Source: Nitrospira sp.
GTDB taxonomy: Bacteria > Nitrospirota > Nitrospiria > Nitrospirales > Nitrospiraceae
Length of the DNA stretch: 8,307 nucleotides
Assembly (NCBI GenBank): GCA_015904045.1
Contig: JABMDG010000049.1
Location: 15,320-23,626 of the forward strand
Direction of reading: 5' to 3'
Each line of letters opens with the position of its first letter. The stretch's first letter is position 1. The notes beneath the pieces are model-generated. The model did not search any database. It was not told the DNA's origin and saw only the letters and a list, made by a program, of their open reading frames with translations. Position numbers and translations under genes: made by a program. Below, one piece after another: positions 901-6,998 of the stretch.

Positions 901-1533
901 CTATATCCCCGCATACCATTCATACCCCTGATCCTCCCAATACCAGCCCTTTCCCCCGCCGATATCGGCCAGAGACTCGACCAACTCGATTTGCATAACA
1001 TACTTCGCCTGTTTGTACCCCAGTTGCCGCTCAAACCGCAGACGCAATGGTGCGCCGTGGGGAACGTCCAGCGGTACGCTATTGAGTTCGTACGCCAGGA
1101 TCGTCTGCGGATGATAACAATCTGCAAGCGCGATGCTCTCGTAATAAGCAACTCCTTCATCATCCAGATCGGCACAGTGAAACACCGCATAGCGGGCATT
1201 CGGCAACGGCTCGACCTGGTGCATTAGATCGCCGATCGGCACTCCGGTCCATTTCCCGATGGCGCTCCAGCCCTCCACACAATCATGACGGGTGATTTGC
1301 GTCCGAGCGGGCAACTCTTTCAATGCGGCCAGCGACCAGCTTCTCGGAGCCTGCACCAAACCGACAACTTCCAGCGTCCATTCAGAAAAACCTTGCGCGA
1401 CATGTTCGGCATATTCTTCCGTGCCAGGATCAGTATTGCCGTTCGCCCGAAAGATCTTCGAGATATCAGCCGCACGATATTCTTTTGCCAGTGCGTCTCG
1501 TGGAGTGATCGCCCGCTGCACTGTCTCCGTCAA
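901..1533 (-). CDS. Sulfite-oxidase-type molybdopterin oxidoreductase lacking its N-terminal export signal
   Basis: The product has one oxidoreductase molybdopterin-binding domain of the sulfite oxidase/YedY fold. Cys85 in 'TRHDCVEGWSAIGKWTGVP' is the expected molybdenum ligand. Further family signatures are 'YAVFHCADLDDEG' (115-127), 'HPQTILAYELN' (141-151), 'HGAPLRLRFERQLGYKQAKYV' in two blocks (159-179), and the family-typical C-terminus 'YWEDQGYEWYAGI'. Substrate is unknown; sulfite or sulfoxides are possible. The only available start is TTG at 1531-1533, overlapping the TGA of the repeat-protein gene by 2 nt. Homologs as I recall them begin with a Tat or lipoprotein signal. Here homology continues upstream of the TTG to a Trp codon at 1564-1566 ('WFPGILGKAERLTETVQR') and then stops. 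The domain is intact but the export signal is absent, so the protein is cytoplasmic, made by frameshifting, or non-functional. Confidence 0.8.
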   Translation of the reverse strand: MTETVQRAITPRDALAKEYRAADISKIFRANGNTDPGTEEYAEHVAQGFSEWTLEVVGLVQAPRSWSLAALKELPARTQITRHDCVEGWSAIGKWTGVPIGDLMHQVEPLPNARYAVFHCADLDDEGVAYYESIALADCYHPQTILAYELNSVPLDVPHGAPLRLRFERQLGYKQAKYVMQIELVESLADIGGGKGWYWEDQGYEWYAGI

Positions 1534-1919
1534 TCGTTCGGCCTTGCCAAGGATGCCGGGGAACCATCTTTCGTGGCTTTCATCTCGCCCTTCATGGCAT
1601 CCTTTGACGCTTTCACCGAATCCTTCTGGGCCTGCATTTCCCCCTTCATCGCATCATTCTTGGCTTTGATGTCATCCTTCATGGCATCTTTCGATGAGCG
1701 CATCGCATCGGTCTTGGCCTTCATCGCATCAGATTTGCCCTTTACCGAATCCGTACCGGCGTTCATCTGCCCCTTCATCTCACCCTTCATGGCATCGACA
1801 TCGGCCTGCATTGCGCCTTTCATGTCATGCCCCATGGTGCTCATATCTTCGGCGAAGGAATATACGCCTGCCCCCATCACAGAAGCCACTGCTGCGATTG
1901 CGAACAACATCTTCTTCAT
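1530..1919 (-). CDS. Exported protein of 18-residue helical repeats, C-terminus probably altered
   Basis: The product is 129 aa. Residues 1-23 are a clear Sec signal peptide (MKKMLFAIAAVASVMGAGVY, then SFA-ED as the likely cleavage site). The ATG at 1917-1919 is chosen because AGGAGG lies 6 nt upstream; a longer frame to 1988 lacks any such site. The mature part is rich in Lys, Asp, Met and Ala with no Cys. Three nearly exact 18-residue units occupy 67-84, 85-102 and 103-120, with a looser unit before them. Eighteen residues equal five α-helical turns, so a long amphipathic helix is expected, perhaps binding membranes, metals or a partner. The family is not recognised. The repeat breaks at Asp118, and the last residues (GSPASLARPND) are the out-of-frame reading of molybdopterin-gene sequence, so the original C-terminus seems lost. 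Confidence 0.8.
   Translation of the reverse strand: MKKMLFAIAAVASVMGAGVYSFAEDMSTMGHDMKGAMQADVDAMKGEMKGQMNAGTDSVKGKSDAMKAKTDAMRSSKDAMKDDIKAKNDAMKGEMQAQKDSVKASKDAMKGEMKATKDGSPASLARPND
1560..1721 (-). repeat. Three tandem 54-bp coding repeats
   Basis: Units at 1668-1721, 1614-1667 and 1560-1613 encode KAKTDAMRSSKDAMKDDI, KAKNDAMKGEMQAQKDSV and a third copy starting KASKDAMKGEMKATKDG. Units 2 and 3 are the closest pair. The third copy is cut at its end by the junction near 1566. Repeats of this kind can change copy number by slippage or recombination. Confidence 0.75.
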
Positions 1920-1980: not shown

Positions 1981-2445
1981 TCACTCATGCACCTTGGTGA
2001 GCGTCATCACCGCCGGCCAGTTGGCATCCGCCTGTTGGATATACCCCGGGACATCCGACAGCCATCGTGAACGGACGGCGTCACTATAATTGAGATACAG
2101 TGTACCATGAATCACGCTAAAAGCCGCGGGATCGATTGTGGCCTTGTAGCCTTTCGCCATCCCATAGGCACAGTAGCCGCCGTACTGCGGAGCATACTTG
2201 TCCGGCTCGGCAGCAAACACATCCCGATGCGCGGCTGACGCAAACTGAAACGTCGAGCCTCGATGGACTGATTGAAACTCCGGCAATCCCTTGACCGGTT
2301 TCTGCTCAGTGAAATACGCAACCGGATCGTAGCCGCCAATTGCAACCCCGTCTCTCTCGAAATAGTCACCGGCAAAGACCGTAGCGAGACCGCTGATCCA
2401 GAGGACAACCGCTGTGAGGACACAATATCGAACGCTTCTGGTCAT
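1981..2445 (-). CDS. Exported YHS-domain protein
   Basis: The product (154 aa) starts with a Sec signal peptide (residues 1-25, ending VFA-G), so it acts outside the cytoplasm. The YHS domain occupies about 32-100: 'GVAIGGYDPVAYF' (33-45), 'GSTFQFASAAHRDVFAAEPDKY' in two blocks (63-84), and 'YAPQYGGYCAYGMAKG' (84-99). YHS domains are short cysteine-containing modules, in several proteins linked to metal handling; this exported, single-domain form has no firmly established role. The remaining 50 residues are also typical of the exported family ('VIHGTLYLNYSDAVRSRWL'). The start at 2443-2445 is chosen because AGGAG lies 9 nt upstream and the signal peptide follows directly. It lies 40 nt after the dehydrogenase gene and 61 nt before the repeat-protein gene, consistent with one transcript. 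Confidence 0.88.
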   Translation of the reverse strand: MTRSVRYCVLTAVVLWISGLATVFAGDYFERDGVAIGGYDPVAYFTEQKPVKGLPEFQSVHRGSTFQFASAAHRDVFAAEPDKYAPQYGGYCAYGMAKGYKATIDPAAFSVIHGTLYLNYSDAVRSRWLSDVPGYIQQADANWPAVMTLTKVHE

Positions 2446-2480: not shown

Positions 2481-2496
2481 GGCTATCAGCCATCAG
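2481..2496. repeat. Small intergenic sequence similar to 5228-5243
   Basis: GGCTATCAGCCATCAG here matches GGCTATCGGCCATTAG (the reverse complement of 5228-5243) at 14 of 16 bases. Here it supplies the stop codon of the dehydrogenase gene; the other copy sits in the long regulatory gap. It may be a dispersed short repeat. With only two copies in view, chance is not excluded. Confidence 0.3.
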
Positions 2497-3622
2497 TTCC
2501 CACCAGCTCTTGTATAGACGCCTCATATGCGACATTGACATACACCTTAATCGCATTCCGCTCGGTCGTAAGCGTTGCGATCATTTGGCCATAGTTCTCG
2601 AGCCCCTCCACTGGATGAGTCAGCAGTTGAGACAACCATCCAGGATACTCCAGTTCTGCGCGGGCAAAGTCATAGACACCGGCTTCAAAGTATTCGCGAT
2701 TGGCGTTCACTGTTCCCATCACCAACTTGTTCCCGAGTACAAAATCGAGGTTGATCCTGTCCGACGGGATGGCATGGTGCCGGTCGCCGCCCGTGACGCT
2801 GGCCAACACAAGCACGCCGTTCTTCCCGAGCGATTCCATGGCCTCGAAGGCCACCGGCGAATAGCCGGTCGCTTCGAACATCACGTCGAAGGGACCGAAC
2901 CGCTTCGCGGCCTCTCGGATCGACAGATCGTCGGTCGAGATGTACCGAACCCCGAGTTCGTCCAGCAGATCAAGATTGCGCGATGGCCCTGTCTGCTTTC
3001 CAAAGCTCGTGACCTCACAACCCTTCATCCTGAGAGAAAGCGCAGCCAGTAATCCGACTGTGCCGGCGCCCAACACCGCCGCTTTTTTCGGCCTCCAGAT
3101 CTTGAACCGCCGTTGTGCTTCGTACGCCTGAATGAGGCCCTTCTGGATAATCGACATCGGTTCGAGGAGCACGGCCACGTCTTTGAGTCCCTTGGGAACT
3201 TTCACCAAATACTCAGGGTCTTCCACAAACAACTCGGTGAGAAAGCCGTGGCGGAGATTGATGCCTCGCTCGTAGTAGGTGTCCTCCAGCGTCATGTCGT
3301 ATTGGCCGATCTGATCGTAGAAACTGCCGCCGGGACGGCGAACGGTCGGCACCACAAAGTCACCAGGCGAGAATTCCGAGACGCCATGTCCGACCTCCGC
3401 CACTTGCCCGAAGCATTCGTGGCCGATGACGAGGAAATCATAGCCGGGAGGGGCCAGGCCGTATTCAGCCGCATTGATCTCCTTATCTGTCCCATCGACT
3501 CCGACGCGCAATACTTGCACGAGCACCCCACGCCCATTTGGAATCTCATGCACCGACGGCTTGGGCAGATCGGCAAGATGGATCGAATTGGCTTGCCCCG
3601 GAATGACCGCAACGGATTTCAT
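2486..3622 (-). CDS. Glucose-1-dehydrogenase-like medium-chain dehydrogenase
   Basis: The product (378 aa) is a zinc-dependent medium-chain dehydrogenase of the archaeal glucose dehydrogenase type, oxidising a sugar or polyol with NAD(P)+ in the cytoplasm. The N-terminal catalytic domain has 'RVGVDGTDKEI' (39-49), 'FLVIGHECFG' (63-72) and 'AVLLEPMSI' (150-158). The zinc ligands are therefore likely Asp43, His68 and Glu154. Asp instead of Cys at the first ligand also occurs, as I recall, in the Haloferax enzyme. The structural-zinc cysteine loop is absent and replaced by 'RRPGGSFYDQIGQYDMTLED'. The dinucleotide site is 'VLGAGTVGLLAALSL' (183-197). The ATG at 3620-3622 has AAGGA 7 nt upstream. 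The gene lies 65 nt after the anti-sigma gene. The true substrate cannot be read from the sequence. Confidence 0.85.
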   Translation of the reverse strand: MKSVAVIPGQANSIHLADLPKPSVHEIPNGRGVLVQVLRVGVDGTDKEINAAEYGLAPPGYDFLVIGHECFGQVAEVGHGVSEFSPGDFVVPTVRRPGGSFYDQIGQYDMTLEDTYYERGINLRHGFLTELFVEDPEYLVKVPKGLKDVAVLLEPMSIIQKGLIQAYEAQRRFKIWRPKKAAVLGAGTVGLLAALSLRMKGCEVTSFGKQTGPSRNLDLLDELGVRYISTDDLSIREAAKRFGPFDVMFEATGYSPVAFEAMESLGKNGVLVLASVTGGDRHHAIPSDRINLDFVLGNKLVMGTVNANREYFEAGVYDFARAELEYPGWLSQLLTHPVEGLENYGQMIATLTTERNAIKVYVNVAYEASIQELVGTDG

Positions 3623-3687: not shown

Positions 3688-3957
3688 CTACCGCCGACGG
3701 AGCTTCGCAGCGACTGCCTGCCGAACCTGTTCTGATTCGGACGGCGAGTCCACGGTCTGCGGCAGCAGCCTGACCAGATCTCGGACAGAGGCAATCTGCC
3801 CGACATACGCCCCGCAGCCGGCACAGGCAGCGAGATGCAACGCGATTTGCTGCTTACGATCCTCGCCGACATGCGCATCCAGGTACGCCGAGATCCACTC
3901 CACGACTTCTCGGCACGTAATCTCTTCGTGAACGGATTGTGACGCGTCATGTGCCAT
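3688..3957 (-). CDS. Soluble zinc-binding anti-sigma factor (ZAS type)
   Basis: The product (89 aa) carries an anti-sigma zinc-finger (zf-HC2) domain: Cys15 in 'EEITCREVVEWISAYLDAHV', then His41-xxx-Cys45-xx-Cys48 in 'HLAACAGC'. This Hx3Cx2C motif binds zinc, and its cysteines can make such factors redox-sensitive. Proteins of this class hold their partner ECF sigma factor inactive. There is no transmembrane segment after the finger, so it acts in the cytoplasm, unlike many membrane-bound relatives. The rest is a short helical region ending in a basic tail (KLRRR). The start at 3955-3957 is preferred because AAGGAG lies 10 nt upstream; an in-frame GTG at 4030-4032 would add 25 low-complexity residues and overlap the sigma gene. 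It lies 56 nt downstream of the sigma gene, its evident partner. Confidence 0.88.
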   Translation of the reverse strand: MAHDASQSVHEEITCREVVEWISAYLDAHVGEDRKQQIALHLAACAGCGAYVGQIASVRDLVRLLPQTVDSPSESEQVRQAVAAKLRRR

Positions 3958-4013
3958 ATCTGGAAGACTCCTTGTAGGCGGCCTGCCCCTCAGTCTCCCC
4001 TCATCGGATTTCC

Positions 4014-4742
4014 TTACACCGCTCTCTGACACCCCTCCAGGTAGGTCTCCACCGCCCGGCGCACTCGTTCCCTGGCCCGATGCAGCCTGACGTATAAATT
4101 CGTCTCGGTAATCTTTAAGATTTCACAGACTTCCTTTGCGTCAACCCCTTCGACATCCCGGAGGATCAAGACGTCTTTCAAGGTGACCGGCAGCGCCTCG
4201 ATGGCCCGGTTCATAGCCTGGACCGCCTGTTGGGAGGCCAGGAGCTTCTCAGGCGTCTGGTCATCCCATGGTTGCGGAGGAAAGGCCCAATGGCCTGCCC
4301 ACTCACCGGACCGATGAAACCGAGAGGGATCGACAGCGTCTTCCTGCTCATCGTCGAAGGTCTCGAAATCCGAGAAGGTGGTGTGGCGCTTCTCACGCAC
4401 GCCGCGGTCTTTGGCCTTGTGGATCATGATGCCGAAGATCCAGGTGCGCAGCGACGATCGGCCTTCGAATCGGTCCAGACTTTCGATCACCGCCATCCAG
4501 GTGTCCTGCACCACTTCTTCGGCCACCTCCCGATCTCCCACATGGCCCATGGCCATGCGAATCAGAGCCCCATGATGCTTGGTGACCAGTTCGTCGAAGG
4601 CCTGCTCATCGCTTTGTCGCAGTCGCGTAAGGAGCCGCTGCTCGTCGCTGGGCAACGACCGGAGCGGAACGGACGAGGTGTTGGACAGAGCACGGGGCGA
4701 CTGCCCGATTGACTCACTGCGGGTCGTAGCGGCTGCATTCAT
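4014..4742 (-). CDS. ECF-family RNA polymerase sigma factor
   Basis: The product (242 aa) has sigma region 2 at about 47-113 ('AFDELVTKHHGALIRMAMG', 'EEVVQDTWMAVIESLDRFEG', 'SSLRTWIFGIMIHKAKD') and region 4 at about 174-235, with the helix-turn-helix 'VDAKEVCEILKITETNLYVR' (200-219) for -35 recognition. It lacks regions 1 and 3, as usual for ECF factors. The 60-residue linker is longer than usual and contains an acidic stretch and a Trp/Pro-rich block ('GHWAFPPQPWDD', 150-161) that may define its subgroup. A disordered N-terminal extension of about 30 residues precedes region 2. The ATG (4740-4742) overlaps the STAS stop as ATGA, and its strong ribosome site GGAGGAGG lies inside the last STAS codons, so translation is probably coupled. 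Its regulon is unknown; downstream redox genes are candidates. Confidence 0.93.
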   Translation of the reverse strand: MNAAATTRSESIGQSPRALSNTSSVPLRSLPSDEQRLLTRLRQSDEQAFDELVTKHHGALIRMAMGHVGDREVAEEVVQDTWMAVIESLDRFEGRSSLRTWIFGIMIHKAKDRGVREKRHTTFSDFETFDDEQEDAVDPSRFHRSGEWAGHWAFPPQPWDDQTPEKLLASQQAVQAMNRAIEALPVTLKDVLILRDVEGVDAKEVCEILKITETNLYVRLHRARERVRRAVETYLEGCQRAV

Positions 4743-5011
4743 GATCGGCCTCCTCCAACGTGAAGCAGCTCCACGACGAAACGAGGAGCGCTCATAAGGG
4801 TGACTTGTTTGCGCGGGAAGTTGTTGAAGACCTCCACGCCCCTGCTATCCACGTAATCCAACCGGGAACATTCCAGAAACACGTTTTTCTTCTGCCGGAG
4901 AATGGACCGGCACTCCCCGTCAAGCAGCGCCGCCCACTGATCCGTGACTTTGCCTTCCAGTTTGAGAAGGACATCGTGCGCGCTTTCTTGAATCTTGGTG
5001 ATCTTCAACAT
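4739..5011 (-). CDS. STAS-domain protein, anti-sigma-antagonist-like
   Basis: The product (90 aa) is a stand-alone STAS domain similar in plan to SpoIIAA/RsbV antagonists: a β-strand 'VLLKLEGKV' (14-22), a helix with 'LLDGECRSILRQKK' (29-42), strand 'NVFLECSRLDYVDSRG', then 'VTLMSAPRFVVELLH'. Ser56 in 'DYVDSRGVEVF' is at the position normally phosphorylated in this family, so a partner-switch role is possible. However, the second helix after the serine is short ('VEVFNNFP') and no serine kinase or phosphatase gene is in the window. It is the first gene of the sigma operon, 48 nt downstream of a sigma-54 promoter, with AAGGGGA before its ATG. Being coupled to an ECF sigma gene, it probably modulates the sigma or its anti-sigma; how is unknown. 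Confidence 0.82.
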   Translation of the reverse strand: MLKITKIQESAHDVLLKLEGKVTDQWAALLDGECRSILRQKKNVFLECSRLDYVDSRGVEVFNNFPRKQVTLMSAPRFVVELLHVGGGRS

Positions 5012-5058: not shown

Positions 5059-5075
5059 AGCAATCGCAATGCCAG
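5059..5075 (-). promoter_or_regulatory. Sigma-54 (RpoN) promoter of the STAS-ECF-ZAS operon
   Basis: On the minus strand the sequence reads C-TGGCATTGCGATTGCT. The consensus is TGGCAC-N5-TTGCW: the GG of the -24 box and the GC of the -12 box are separated by exactly 10 bases, and all conserved positions match except C to T at the sixth. The predicted transcript start is near 5048, giving a leader of about 37 nt before the STAS ATG. A second TGGCAT…TTGCA at 5033-5050 has 2 bp too much spacing. Confidence 0.75.
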
Positions 5076-5165
5076 CACGAGAGTCATGTGATCAGAACGG
5101 TGTAAGTCGTTGATGTGGAAAATGAAGCGGATTCCAGATCAAACAGGCGGCAGCCTGACAAGGCA

Positions 5166-5209
5166 TGGGATAAGTCCCAATATTTTGGGACCGTCCCAAT
5201 TAGTTGGGA
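5166..5209. promoter_or_regulatory. Array of TCCCAA/TTGGGA palindromes, probable enhancer site
   Basis: Two perfect inverted repeats, TCCCAA-TATT-TTGGGA (5175-5190) and TCCCAA-TTAG-TTGGGA (5194-5209), are separated by CCG. A third, TGGGA-TAAG-TCCCA (5166-5179), shares an arm with the first. Half-sites recur every 9-10 bp, about one helical turn, so bound dimers would lie on the same DNA face. The centres are about 125-155 bp upstream of the predicted sigma-54 transcript start, the usual distance for enhancer-binding protein sites. The adjacent regulator gene ends 116 bp away. The binding protein is not identified from sequence. Confidence 0.7.
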
Positions 5210-5324: not shown

Positions 5325-6998
5325 TCACACTTCACGTTTTTGTCGTTCGATGCCGAGTTTCTTCATCCGGGCTTCGAGGGTCGTCGCATTGAGACCGAGG
5401 ATCTTGGCGGCACCCTTCTCGCCGCTGACACGCCAATTGGTTTGTTCCAACACATCGACGATGTGCTGCCGTTCCATTTCTTCGAGTGTCAGGACTTGTT
5501 CACTGCCGGAAGGCTTGCCGCTGGTTGGTGTCAACCACTCGATCGGCTCCAACTGAGGCCCTTCGCTCAAGATCACCGCCCGCTCGATGACATGCTCCAG
5601 CTCCCGGATATTGCCAGGCCATTGGTAGCGTTGTAGCGCACCGAGCATTCGTTCGGGAATACGGGTGATCTTCTTGCCGAGGTTGGCCGAACACTTCTGG
5701 ACGAAATACTGTGCCAGCAGCGGGATGTCGCCCTCACGCTCCCGCAACGGAGGAAGATGAACGGGAAAAACGTTCAGACGGTAATACAGATCTGGCCGAT
5801 ACTGACCGGATTTCGAGAGTTGATCGAGATTCCGATTCGTCGCGGCGATGACACGGACATTCACTTTGAACGTCTGTGTGCCCCCAACACGCTCAAATTC
5901 ACCTTCTTGCAACACACGCAAGAGCTTCGATTGCAAATCCAGCGGCAGTTCACCGATCTCGTCCAGAAAGATCGTGCCCTTGTCCGCCACCTCGAACCGG
6001 CCGATCTTGAAGATCTTGAAGACGGACAAGACGCGCGGATCGTCGCGCATGGGCTTCGTATCCATCACGGCCAGATGCCCCATCACCGTGCCGGATCGGT
6101 CGAACACGGGAATCGCCAGGTAGCTCTCGACGCCCAGCTTCGCGAGATCTTCCCGGTGGTCCGGAAAGAGATCCTGCACCTTTTCTGGAAACAAGCAGAC
6201 CTCCCCGGACAGGACACGTTCACAAGGCGTGTGAGGAAGGTCATACTCGAAACTATCGAGGAAGCCATCACCTTTCCAAAAGGCCAATGTCCGCACGCGC
6301 GTGCGAGTCCCCTCCACGAACTTGGAGACGAAGGCATACCGTGTCTGAAGCGCCTCGGCCAAACTCTTGACGAGAGATGGGAAGAAGGCCGAGCCAGTGA
6401 CTGCCGCCGTTCCTTCATCGATCTTGCGGAGCATAAGGTCGCTTTTCCGCAAGGCCTGCTCATACCGAAGCCGGTCAAACTCCGCCGATGCCCGCATGGC
6501 AAAAATGCCGAGGATCGACAAGGCACGAACGTGATCCGGCATGGGCTTGGAATCCATGATGGCCAGATGCCCGACGACCCGGTCGCTGGAATCCACGATC
6601 GGCACTCCGCAATAGCTCTCAGCCTTCATCTCCTGAATCAGCGGGACCTGCGGATAGAGTGCCCGAAGCTGATCGGAATGATGGACGCATTGTCGCGTCA
6701 ACACCGTTTCACAGGGGCCATGCGCCGGCACGTCAAACGGCGGGAGTGGCTGTCCTGTGCCCCAACCGGCTTTGGAGAGGAACCGATCACCCGCTTCGTT
6801 GAGTTCGGAGATATAGGCGTAATCCACACCGAGGGCGGCGGCCAGCTGTTGCACCAGGGACGAAAAAAAATGCTCGCCGACCCTCGCCTCCAAGCCTTCG
6901 AGAATCTGGCGGAGAATCGCCCCGGTCTCTGCCCGCTCATCGAGTGCATGGACCTGTGAGGGACCGGGTTGCTGTTCAGGAAAGGGCATCCTCTGCAC
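5325..6998 (-). CDS. Dual-GAF enhancer-binding-type regulator with incomplete AAA+ domain
   Basis: The product (557 aa) resembles FhlA-like sigma-54 activators. GAF1 spans about 42-180 and GAF2 about 203-330; the two are similar ('[23 protein letters not shown]' against '[23 protein letters not shown]', each read in short blocks). After 'RVLSVFKIF' (322-330) the protein jumps to '[20 protein letters not shown]', the Walker B half of the AAA+ domain. Sensor I ('[10 protein letters not shown]'), the arginine-finger region ('[13 protein letters not shown]') and '[13 protein letters not shown]' are present, as is a Fis-type helix-turn-helix near 527-545 ('[19 protein letters not shown]'). Walker A and the GAFTGA loop, about 130-140 residues with the linker, are missing in frame. 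ATP hydrolysis and sigma-54 contact should be lost, though DNA and ligand binding could remain. Start is GTG 6996-6998; ATG 6987-6989 is equally possible. Confidence 0.85.
6003..6020 (-). repeat. Tandem 9-bp repeat at the regulator's deletion junction
   Basis: TTCAAGATC occurs twice in tandem on the minus strand (encoding FKI-FKI). It lies exactly where GAF2 ends and the partial AAA+ domain begins (residues 327-332). Short repeats at a junction are common in deletions by slippage or illegitimate recombination. Confidence 0.7.

Follow-up and report, generated by a model that had tools for sequence, protein, structure and literature searches.

A likely two-tier sigma factor cascade in Nitrospira: a conserved sigma-54 promoter and palindrome pair upstream of an ECF sigma factor operon

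The locus

The DNA analysed here, a Nitrospira-like stretch of 8,307 nucleotides (the window), carries the genes of the putative cascade all on its minus strand, as judged from its ORF map and Pfam matches. From the upstream end, these genes and their candidate control elements are:

5325..6998, minus strand: gene of a sigma-54 activator (bEBP), GAF-GAF-truncated AAA+-lid-Fis HTH (Pfam, motif scan, alignment to the related loci L001 and L002)
5175..5209, minus strand: candidate upstream activating sequence made up of two TCCCAA-N4-TTGGGA palindromes, their centres 19 bp apart
5103..5115, minus strand: IHF-like site CATCAACGACTTA, agreeing at 8 of 9 positions with the IHF consensus WATCAANNNNTTR
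5059..5074, minus strand: sigma-54 -24/-12 promoter TGGCAT-N5-TTGCT, TGGCATTGCGATTGCT, with GG-N10-GC, an exact match
4739..5011, minus strand: STAS-domain protein (Pfam STAS above cut-off, STAS_2 below)
4014..4742, minus strand: ECF sigma factor (Pfam Sigma70_r2 and r4_2; NCBIfam sigma70-ECF above cut-off)
3992..4018, minus strand: candidate ECF-dependent promoter TGTAAGGAAATCCGATGAGGGGAGACT, 5' of the anti-sigma gene, one mismatch to the motif
3688..3957, minus strand: zinc anti-sigma factor (zf-HC2, C-x25-H-x3-C-x2-C; Pfam, with the NCBIfam RsrA model below cut-off)
2486..3622, minus strand: zinc alcohol/glucose dehydrogenase-like protein (Pfam), clustered likewise in many relatives (synteny)
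1981..2445, minus strand: YHS-domain protein (Pfam below gathering score; the homologue at L005 is above the NCBIfam YHS (seleno)protein cut-off)
1530..1919, minus strand: methionine-rich ORF, its 3' end changed by a deletion at about 1565-1569
901..1533, minus strand: MsrP-like molybdopterin oxidoreductase (Pfam Oxidored_molyb), its 5' part missing; the L005 homologue is under the NCBIfam MsrP cut-off

The end of the STAS gene and the start of the ECF gene share 4 nt, which places the ECF gene in an operon behind the sigma-54 box (ORF map, Pfam and synteny). Farther downstream the window lacks about 1.2 kb: the methionine-rich ORF is fused to the MsrP-like gene, the cytochrome b gene of the relatives is gone, and their thioredoxin-like gene is not found in the window after the MsrP-like gene (about position 901). 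The methionine-rich ORF has no Pfam match and no NCBIfam match above cut-off; in the cluster it and the MsrP-like enzyme go with a b561-type cytochrome, none of them above its NCBIfam cut-off. A SpoIIAA-like phospho-switch acting through the STAS protein was considered and set aside: the usual phospho-acceptor serine is found in 3 of 41 sequences (window, L001 and L002), and its place is taken in the others by G, A, Q, V, M, T or E.

Promoter, paired palindromes and their spacing

The initial annotation had assigned a sigma-54 promoter to TGGCAT-N5-TTGCT, with GG-N10-GC spacing, 48 bp 5' of the STAS start (5011), and the sequence supports the assignment. Within the window, TGGCAYNNNNNTTGCW is matched exactly only by TGGCATTGCGATTGCT (one match is reached by 3 of 200 dinucleotide shuffles), and a GG-N10-GC box precedes the STAS gene in 43/43 related regions when, for each region, the best site up to 120 nt before the STAS start is taken: 34 are exact to TGGCAYNNNNNTTGCW, 7 have one mismatch and 2 have two. 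RpoN is present in 14/14 relatives searched.

The palindromes, at 5175-5190 and 5194-5209, are exact. Their 35-nt array occurs once in the window and in 0/200 shuffles even when 3 mismatches are allowed, which rules out chance palindromes; the sigma-54 box and the array, both exact in the window, are not due to chance. Lone palindromes with up to 3 mismatches are in no clear excess (7 observed vs 3.9 expected, with 17/200 shuffles getting to 7), so that the signal is the exact pair with its 19-bp spacing. The two perfect copies described at the outset stand; the partial third that was described with them is not conserved, its promoter-side half-site attaining 5/6 bases in the window alone among 42 related regions. 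In 17/42 regions (counted by eye), the window not among them, a lone TCCCA stands some 14 nt past the first palindrome on the far side of the array. TCCCAA-N4-TTGGGA is not known to match any activator site. The exact palindrome occurs only 0-3 times per genome (20 genomes), on which ground a large bEBP regulon was rejected.

A search with the ECF protein yielded 22 loci: 2 from actinobacteria and 20 of Nitrospira type (18 titled Nitrospira or uncultured Nitrospira, 1 Nitrospiraceae, and 1 titled Nitrosospira that groups with Nitrospira in the tree). Two palindromes with 19-bp spacing and at most 2 mismatches each, together with a promoter having at most 1 mismatch, are found at 18 of these 20; left out of the 18 are L016, where the contig ends before the promoter, and L019, where it ends before the array. 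Extended to 395 genomes of the phylum, the ECF search gave a match at 1e-60 in 55, with no more than 7 candidates per genome scored; 41 genomes were counted as bearing the ortholog (identity of roughly 70% upward; G020 is truncated by a contig end). All 41 have the array, 36 of them at 3 or fewer mismatches and the other five (G386, G070, G268, G285 and G330) with up to 4 mismatches, two of these with an 18-bp step. Promoter and palindromes, whose joint lack of conservation before orthologous operons had been named as a finding that would tell against the initial annotation, are thus both retained there (box 43/43, array 41/41).

The DNA pattern alone, searched in the same 395 genomes, finds the array in 44 and its reversed control in 0. 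Beyond the 36, the eight array genomes are G038, whose ECF gene is interrupted by the end of its contig, G056, G170, G262, G264, G311, G328 and G270; the array match in G270 has 3 mismatches, and G388 gives an ECF match of 73% over part of the protein. Among 30 loci taken from the array search, 27 run into STAS-ECF, one (L053) ends with its contig, the STAS and ECF genes of that genome lying on its other contig, L104, and two (L058 and L060) are relics. In the genomes of these two, G056 (L088) and G170 (L089), the operon has been lost from the array up to the tail of the thioredoxin-like gene, only fragments of the activator survive, and the array is a relic. The ECF proteins of G262, G264, G311 and G328 are only 41-45% similar, and these genomes retain both activator and array. 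At L074, L075, L076 and L090 the same activator and array accompany a diverged ECF (41-45%), and the STAS match is weak or missing.

Among ECF paralogs (53-59% identical), 7/7 examined show neither a STAS match nor an array, and no STAS or array was found with the second ECF copy of G230 (L096, 72%). At L102 (G293) the neighbours of an ECF paralog are again the cytochrome b, molybdopterin oxidoreductase and thioredoxin-like genes, and both STAS and array are absent; the sigma-54 tier may be an add-on.

The array centre is 118 nt away from the -24 box in the window; among the 42 regions that reach the array, the first box base lies 115-118 nt from the array centre in 35 and 126-129 nt from it in 7, so that the enhancer-type geometry for a sigma-54 activator proposed for this one locus extends to 42/42. 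The two spacing classes are about one helical turn apart. On the STAS+ECF tree they need three changes and are compatible with a single origin; since they may reflect one event, the helical-phase argument is suggestive only. The IHF-like site of the window lies between these elements, 41 nt upstream of the -24 box. Matches of at least 8/9 at an offset of 40/41 nt above the box occur in 28/42 regions, against a mean of 0.04 and a maximum of 2 in 300 shuffle rounds, and the sequence is weaker than 8/9 in the other 14. An IHF-alpha-like protein is encoded in 6/6 genomes, at 107-119 bits, just below the himA cut-off of 120.25. An IHF site between enhancer and promoter is common, not obligatory, at sigma-54 promoters.

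The neighbouring activator and the ECF motif

In 47/47 loci (window and two relics counted) the coding sequence for the C-terminal part of the activator precedes the array in the same orientation. Its end lies 17-213 bp from the array, or about 1.3-1.5 kb from it in relics and where a 450-aa gene intervenes. This gene (L005:6128-7480 and relatives), which separates activator from array in some genomes, has no Pfam or NCBIfam match. The intact activator of L005 reads GAF-GAF-PAS-AAA+-Fis, and Walker A and GAFTGA stand in one frame in 15/20 loci (L001-L020); in the remaining 5 the gene is split, cut or missing, or gives no match to the Walker A pattern. The activator is split, shortened or carries an insert near AAA+ in the assemblies of L015, L078, L081 and L003. 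Relative to L001 and L002, the window is short of 744 bp at 6008/6009, an in-frame stretch of 248 codons. The loss removes PAS, Walker A and GAFTGA (motif scan and alignment), so that the protein as written could not activate sigma-54, and the first tier would be broken in this contig unless the contig is misassembled. No equally deleted activator is seen in the best 120 of 7997 protein matches, which are all longer (786-942 aa). The joints of the deletions share 0-2 nt (by eye); the 744-bp and the ~1.2-kb losses of the window may be real deletions or misassembly.

The candidate signature of the second tier is a TGTAAG...GAC conservation first noticed before the YHS gene and later just 3' of the ECF gene. 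Written as TGTAAG-N16-CGACY it is, genome-wide, no commoner than its reversed control (116 vs 133 matches in 20 genomes). Of the 116 matches, 48 lie within 30 kb of the array vs 1.8 expected, figures to be read with the reservation that the motif was picked at this locus and that related genomes are not independent. The operon strand carries 46 of these 48, and 28 are outside the operon itself; the two off-strand matches are both at msrB, about 9 kb away, in G013 and G195. With at most 1 mismatch the motif stands before the anti-sigma gene in 37/39 loci, before the cytochrome b gene in 24/32, the dehydrogenase gene in 9/21 and the YHS gene in 8/28, where shuffles give 0-0.5%. At the same threshold it was not found before the methionine-rich gene (0/29), the MsrP-like gene (0/32), the thioredoxin-like gene (0/13) or the activator gene (0/5); the methionine-rich and MsrP-like genes would thus need read-through from upstream. 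Its count before STAS (0/45) disposes of autoregulation of the STAS promoter by the ECF sigma factor. In G001, a close relative of the window, an ECF-type motif lies 188 nt before the activator ORF start (L121, G001:C70:15073), and feedback from ECF to activator is possible there.

Nearby genes behind the motif encode a GMC oxidoreductase, an aquaporin, a second molybdopterin oxidoreductase and an MGH1-like glycoside hydrolase; msrA and msrB are among the further genes, most of which are unlinked. Counting the best copy per genome (one copy each for G008 and G014, which have two), 15 of the 18 ortholog-bearing genomes that gave an msrB match carry the motif before this gene, 13 of them exactly and 2 with one mismatch. 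The exceptions are G010 and G258 (2 mismatches each) and G397 (3); no msrB match came from G005 and G006, and the second msrB copy of G195 (L196), at 4 mismatches, is without the motif. For msrA the count is 18/19 ortholog-bearing genomes (7 exact, 11 with one mismatch), two of these matches, in G012 and G217, being doubtful because they overlap the ribosome-binding region; the exception is G142 (2 mismatches), and G014 is without an msrA match. The diverged-ECF genomes G262, G264 and G328 have no motif at msrA or msrB.

Several other readings of these facts have to be weighed. The array could be a terminator or attenuator hairpin of the activator gene, or the operator of a repressor, with the -24/-12 box alone mattering: the two palindromes can pair together (17-nt arms, 76% complementary), and in many loci they follow the aligned end of the activator by the short distance given above. 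However, where the 450-aa gene pushes the activator some 1.3-1.5 kb away, the array remains 115-118 nt from the -24 box, and no T-tract is conserved after it. Because the array stays with the promoter and the T-tract is not conserved, the terminator reading is rejected; a repressor-operator function may be compatible with the data, and the reading taken as a whole is highly improbable. The first tier might otherwise work as described, but with a different bEBP of the genome on the array. The window, whose neighbouring activator has no ATPase core and whose array is nonetheless perfect, speaks for this, as does the existence of further bEBP genes, for example beside the ECF paralog in L101; what makes it unlikely is that the neighbour keeps its strand in 47/47 loci, that activator and array are both retained where the ECF has diverged to 41-45%, and that loss of the operon in G056 and G170 accompanies decay of the activator (possibly one shared event). 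From the same-strand adjacency, the retention with a diverged ECF and the rarity of the palindrome, we infer a dedicated activator-array pair.

For the second tier, the competing reader of the motif is the paralogous ECF (~50-59% identical, with no STAS or array). Were the TGTAAG-N16-CGAC regulon mainly its own, the second tier of the cascade would be smaller. The motif is found downstream of the paralog genes in G002 and G009, and the paralogous ECF probably shares it. Genomes without the operon also keep it, G056 and G170 at msrA and msrB and G063 at msrA, as does the paralog-only G236 (exact at msrA, 1 mismatch at msrB). On the other hand, the motif precedes this operon's own anti-sigma gene in 37/39 loci and is concentrated within 30 kb of the array; eight genomes (G001, G012, G015, G195, G217, G299, G154 and G317) that show no second ECF at 1e-60 among the candidates scored, no more than 7 in each, have it exactly at msrB, and the paralog-only G138, G156 and G293 are without it, having at least 2 mismatches at msrA/msrB. 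That the paralog is the main reader is a minority view deserving some weight; the preferred reading is that the motif is read by the ECF of this operon, and not only by the paralog.

A putative two-tier scheme and its relation to known systems

On the DNA elements, their conservation and spacing, the gene identities and the synteny, all established by computation, the following scheme can be built. The GAF-GAF-PAS activator encoded just upstream would bind the two-palindrome enhancer, IHF would bend the DNA at its site 40-41 nt above the -24 box, and the activator would remodel sigma-54 polymerase at 5074-5059 to give expression of both STAS and ECF genes. The ECF sigma factor would then read TGTAAG-N16-CGAC(T/C) promoters, among them that of its own zinc anti-sigma factor, closing a delayed negative feedback loop. 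Its further targets would be the redox-repair genes that follow, several nearby genes, and the mostly unlinked msrA and msrB; the second sigma factor thus probably turns on genes that repair oxidised proteins. On comparative sequence evidence the first tier is strongly supported and the second tier is supported, and the scheme as a whole is likely to be a mode of control in Nitrospira. The sigma-54-to-ECF cascade postulated in the initial annotation accordingly gains support from the conserved box and array and from the second-tier motif, with the paralogous ECF as a rival reader of the latter.

The signal may be oxidant damage. Chlorite dismutase is frequent in Nitrospirae (PMC9751292), which makes reactive chlorine a reasonable candidate. 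A more speculative extension, offered tentatively and on balance doubtful, would make the system an oxidant coincidence detector: the cytoplasmic GAF-GAF-PAS activator, with about one enhancer per genome, would make the ECF sigma factor on a first signal, the zinc-thiol anti-sigma factor would free it on a second, and newly made, ECF-dependent anti-sigma factor would end the response; the core-less activator of the window would then be an enhancer-bound silencer.

Nitrospira are major nitrite oxidisers, and little is known of their stress sensing. Cascades from sigma-54 to an ECF sigma factor are known elsewhere and were not found described for these organisms in the open-access literature searched; the present one would extend such a cascade (HrpL-type in the literature found) to a distant phylum and to a repair regulon. 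The locus offers an enhancer motif, an activator that is probably dedicated to it, an IHF-like site, and a set of candidate ECF targets that includes msrA, msrB and the gene of an MsrP-like enzyme; its control DNA is conserved in dozens of Nitrospira-type genomes. The IHF-like site, the two spacing classes and the candidate TGTAAG-N16-CGAC regulon are additions to the initial annotation. None of the open-access papers found (PMC9751292 and PMC3162934 among them) describes such a Nitrospira cascade in its title or abstract opening, and no paper was found there on STAS domains together with ECF and anti-sigma factors in Nitrospirae.

The nearest precedent, by analogy, is HrpRS-sigma-54-IHF-HrpL: in Pseudomonas syringae, sigma-54 together with HrpRS and IHF directs synthesis of the ECF sigma factor HrpL (PMC5263251), and HrpS-HrpL of Pantoea is subject to the same type of control (PMC8103513). 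Shared with HrpL is a sigma-54-type promoter for an ECF gene with a candidate enhancer-binding-protein site, here predicted from sequence; the IHF site of the HrpL promoter may have its counterpart in the IHF-like sequence. Unlike HrpL, which has the HrpR/HrpS pair and serves type III secretion, the Nitrospira system has one GAF-GAF-PAS sensor activator, an ECF paired with a STAS protein and a zinc anti-sigma factor, and a candidate regulon of methionine-sulfoxide and redox repair. The intact L005 activator resembles FhlA and NifA in having GAF, PAS, AAA+ and Fis HTH domains and in matching both NCBIfam models, below their equivalog cut-offs.

The second tier recalls the ECF16 group. In outline (PMC8315932), BcrS is an ECF16 sigma factor, the BcrS-AbcS system with BcrXQP being an example of the group; it acts over a methionine-rich peptide and Msr system, is induced by hypochlorous acid and uses GTAA-N14-21-CGAA sites. 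The likeness would lie in the company of the ECF gene: a methionine-rich peptide, and an MsrP-like enzyme that goes with a cytochrome of the membrane, in Nitrospira none above its NCBIfam cut-off. Azospira SigF with MrpX-YedYZ is reportedly (Melnyk, 2015) another ECF16 system. The ECF16 promoter GTAA-N14-21-CGAA is to be set against the Nitrospira TGTAAG-N16-CGAC, and the Nitrospira cytochrome is b561-like, a STAS partner is present and ECF synthesis appears to be under sigma-54. Membership in ECF16 is rejected because the Nitrospira anti-sigma factor is of the zf-HC2 zinc type and not a six-helix DUF1109/NrsF protein. In this it is closer to SigR-RsrA: the spacing C-x25-H-x3-C-x2-C, found in 39/39 loci with an anti-sigma match, is RsrA-like, with the NCBIfam RsrA match below cut-off. 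Unlike in SigR-RsrA, the Nitrospira anti-sigma gene has its own candidate ECF promoter and the ECF gene is placed behind a sigma-54 promoter. By analogy, then, the present system reads as an HrpL-like first tier joined to a BcrS-like second tier with a zinc anti-sigma factor.
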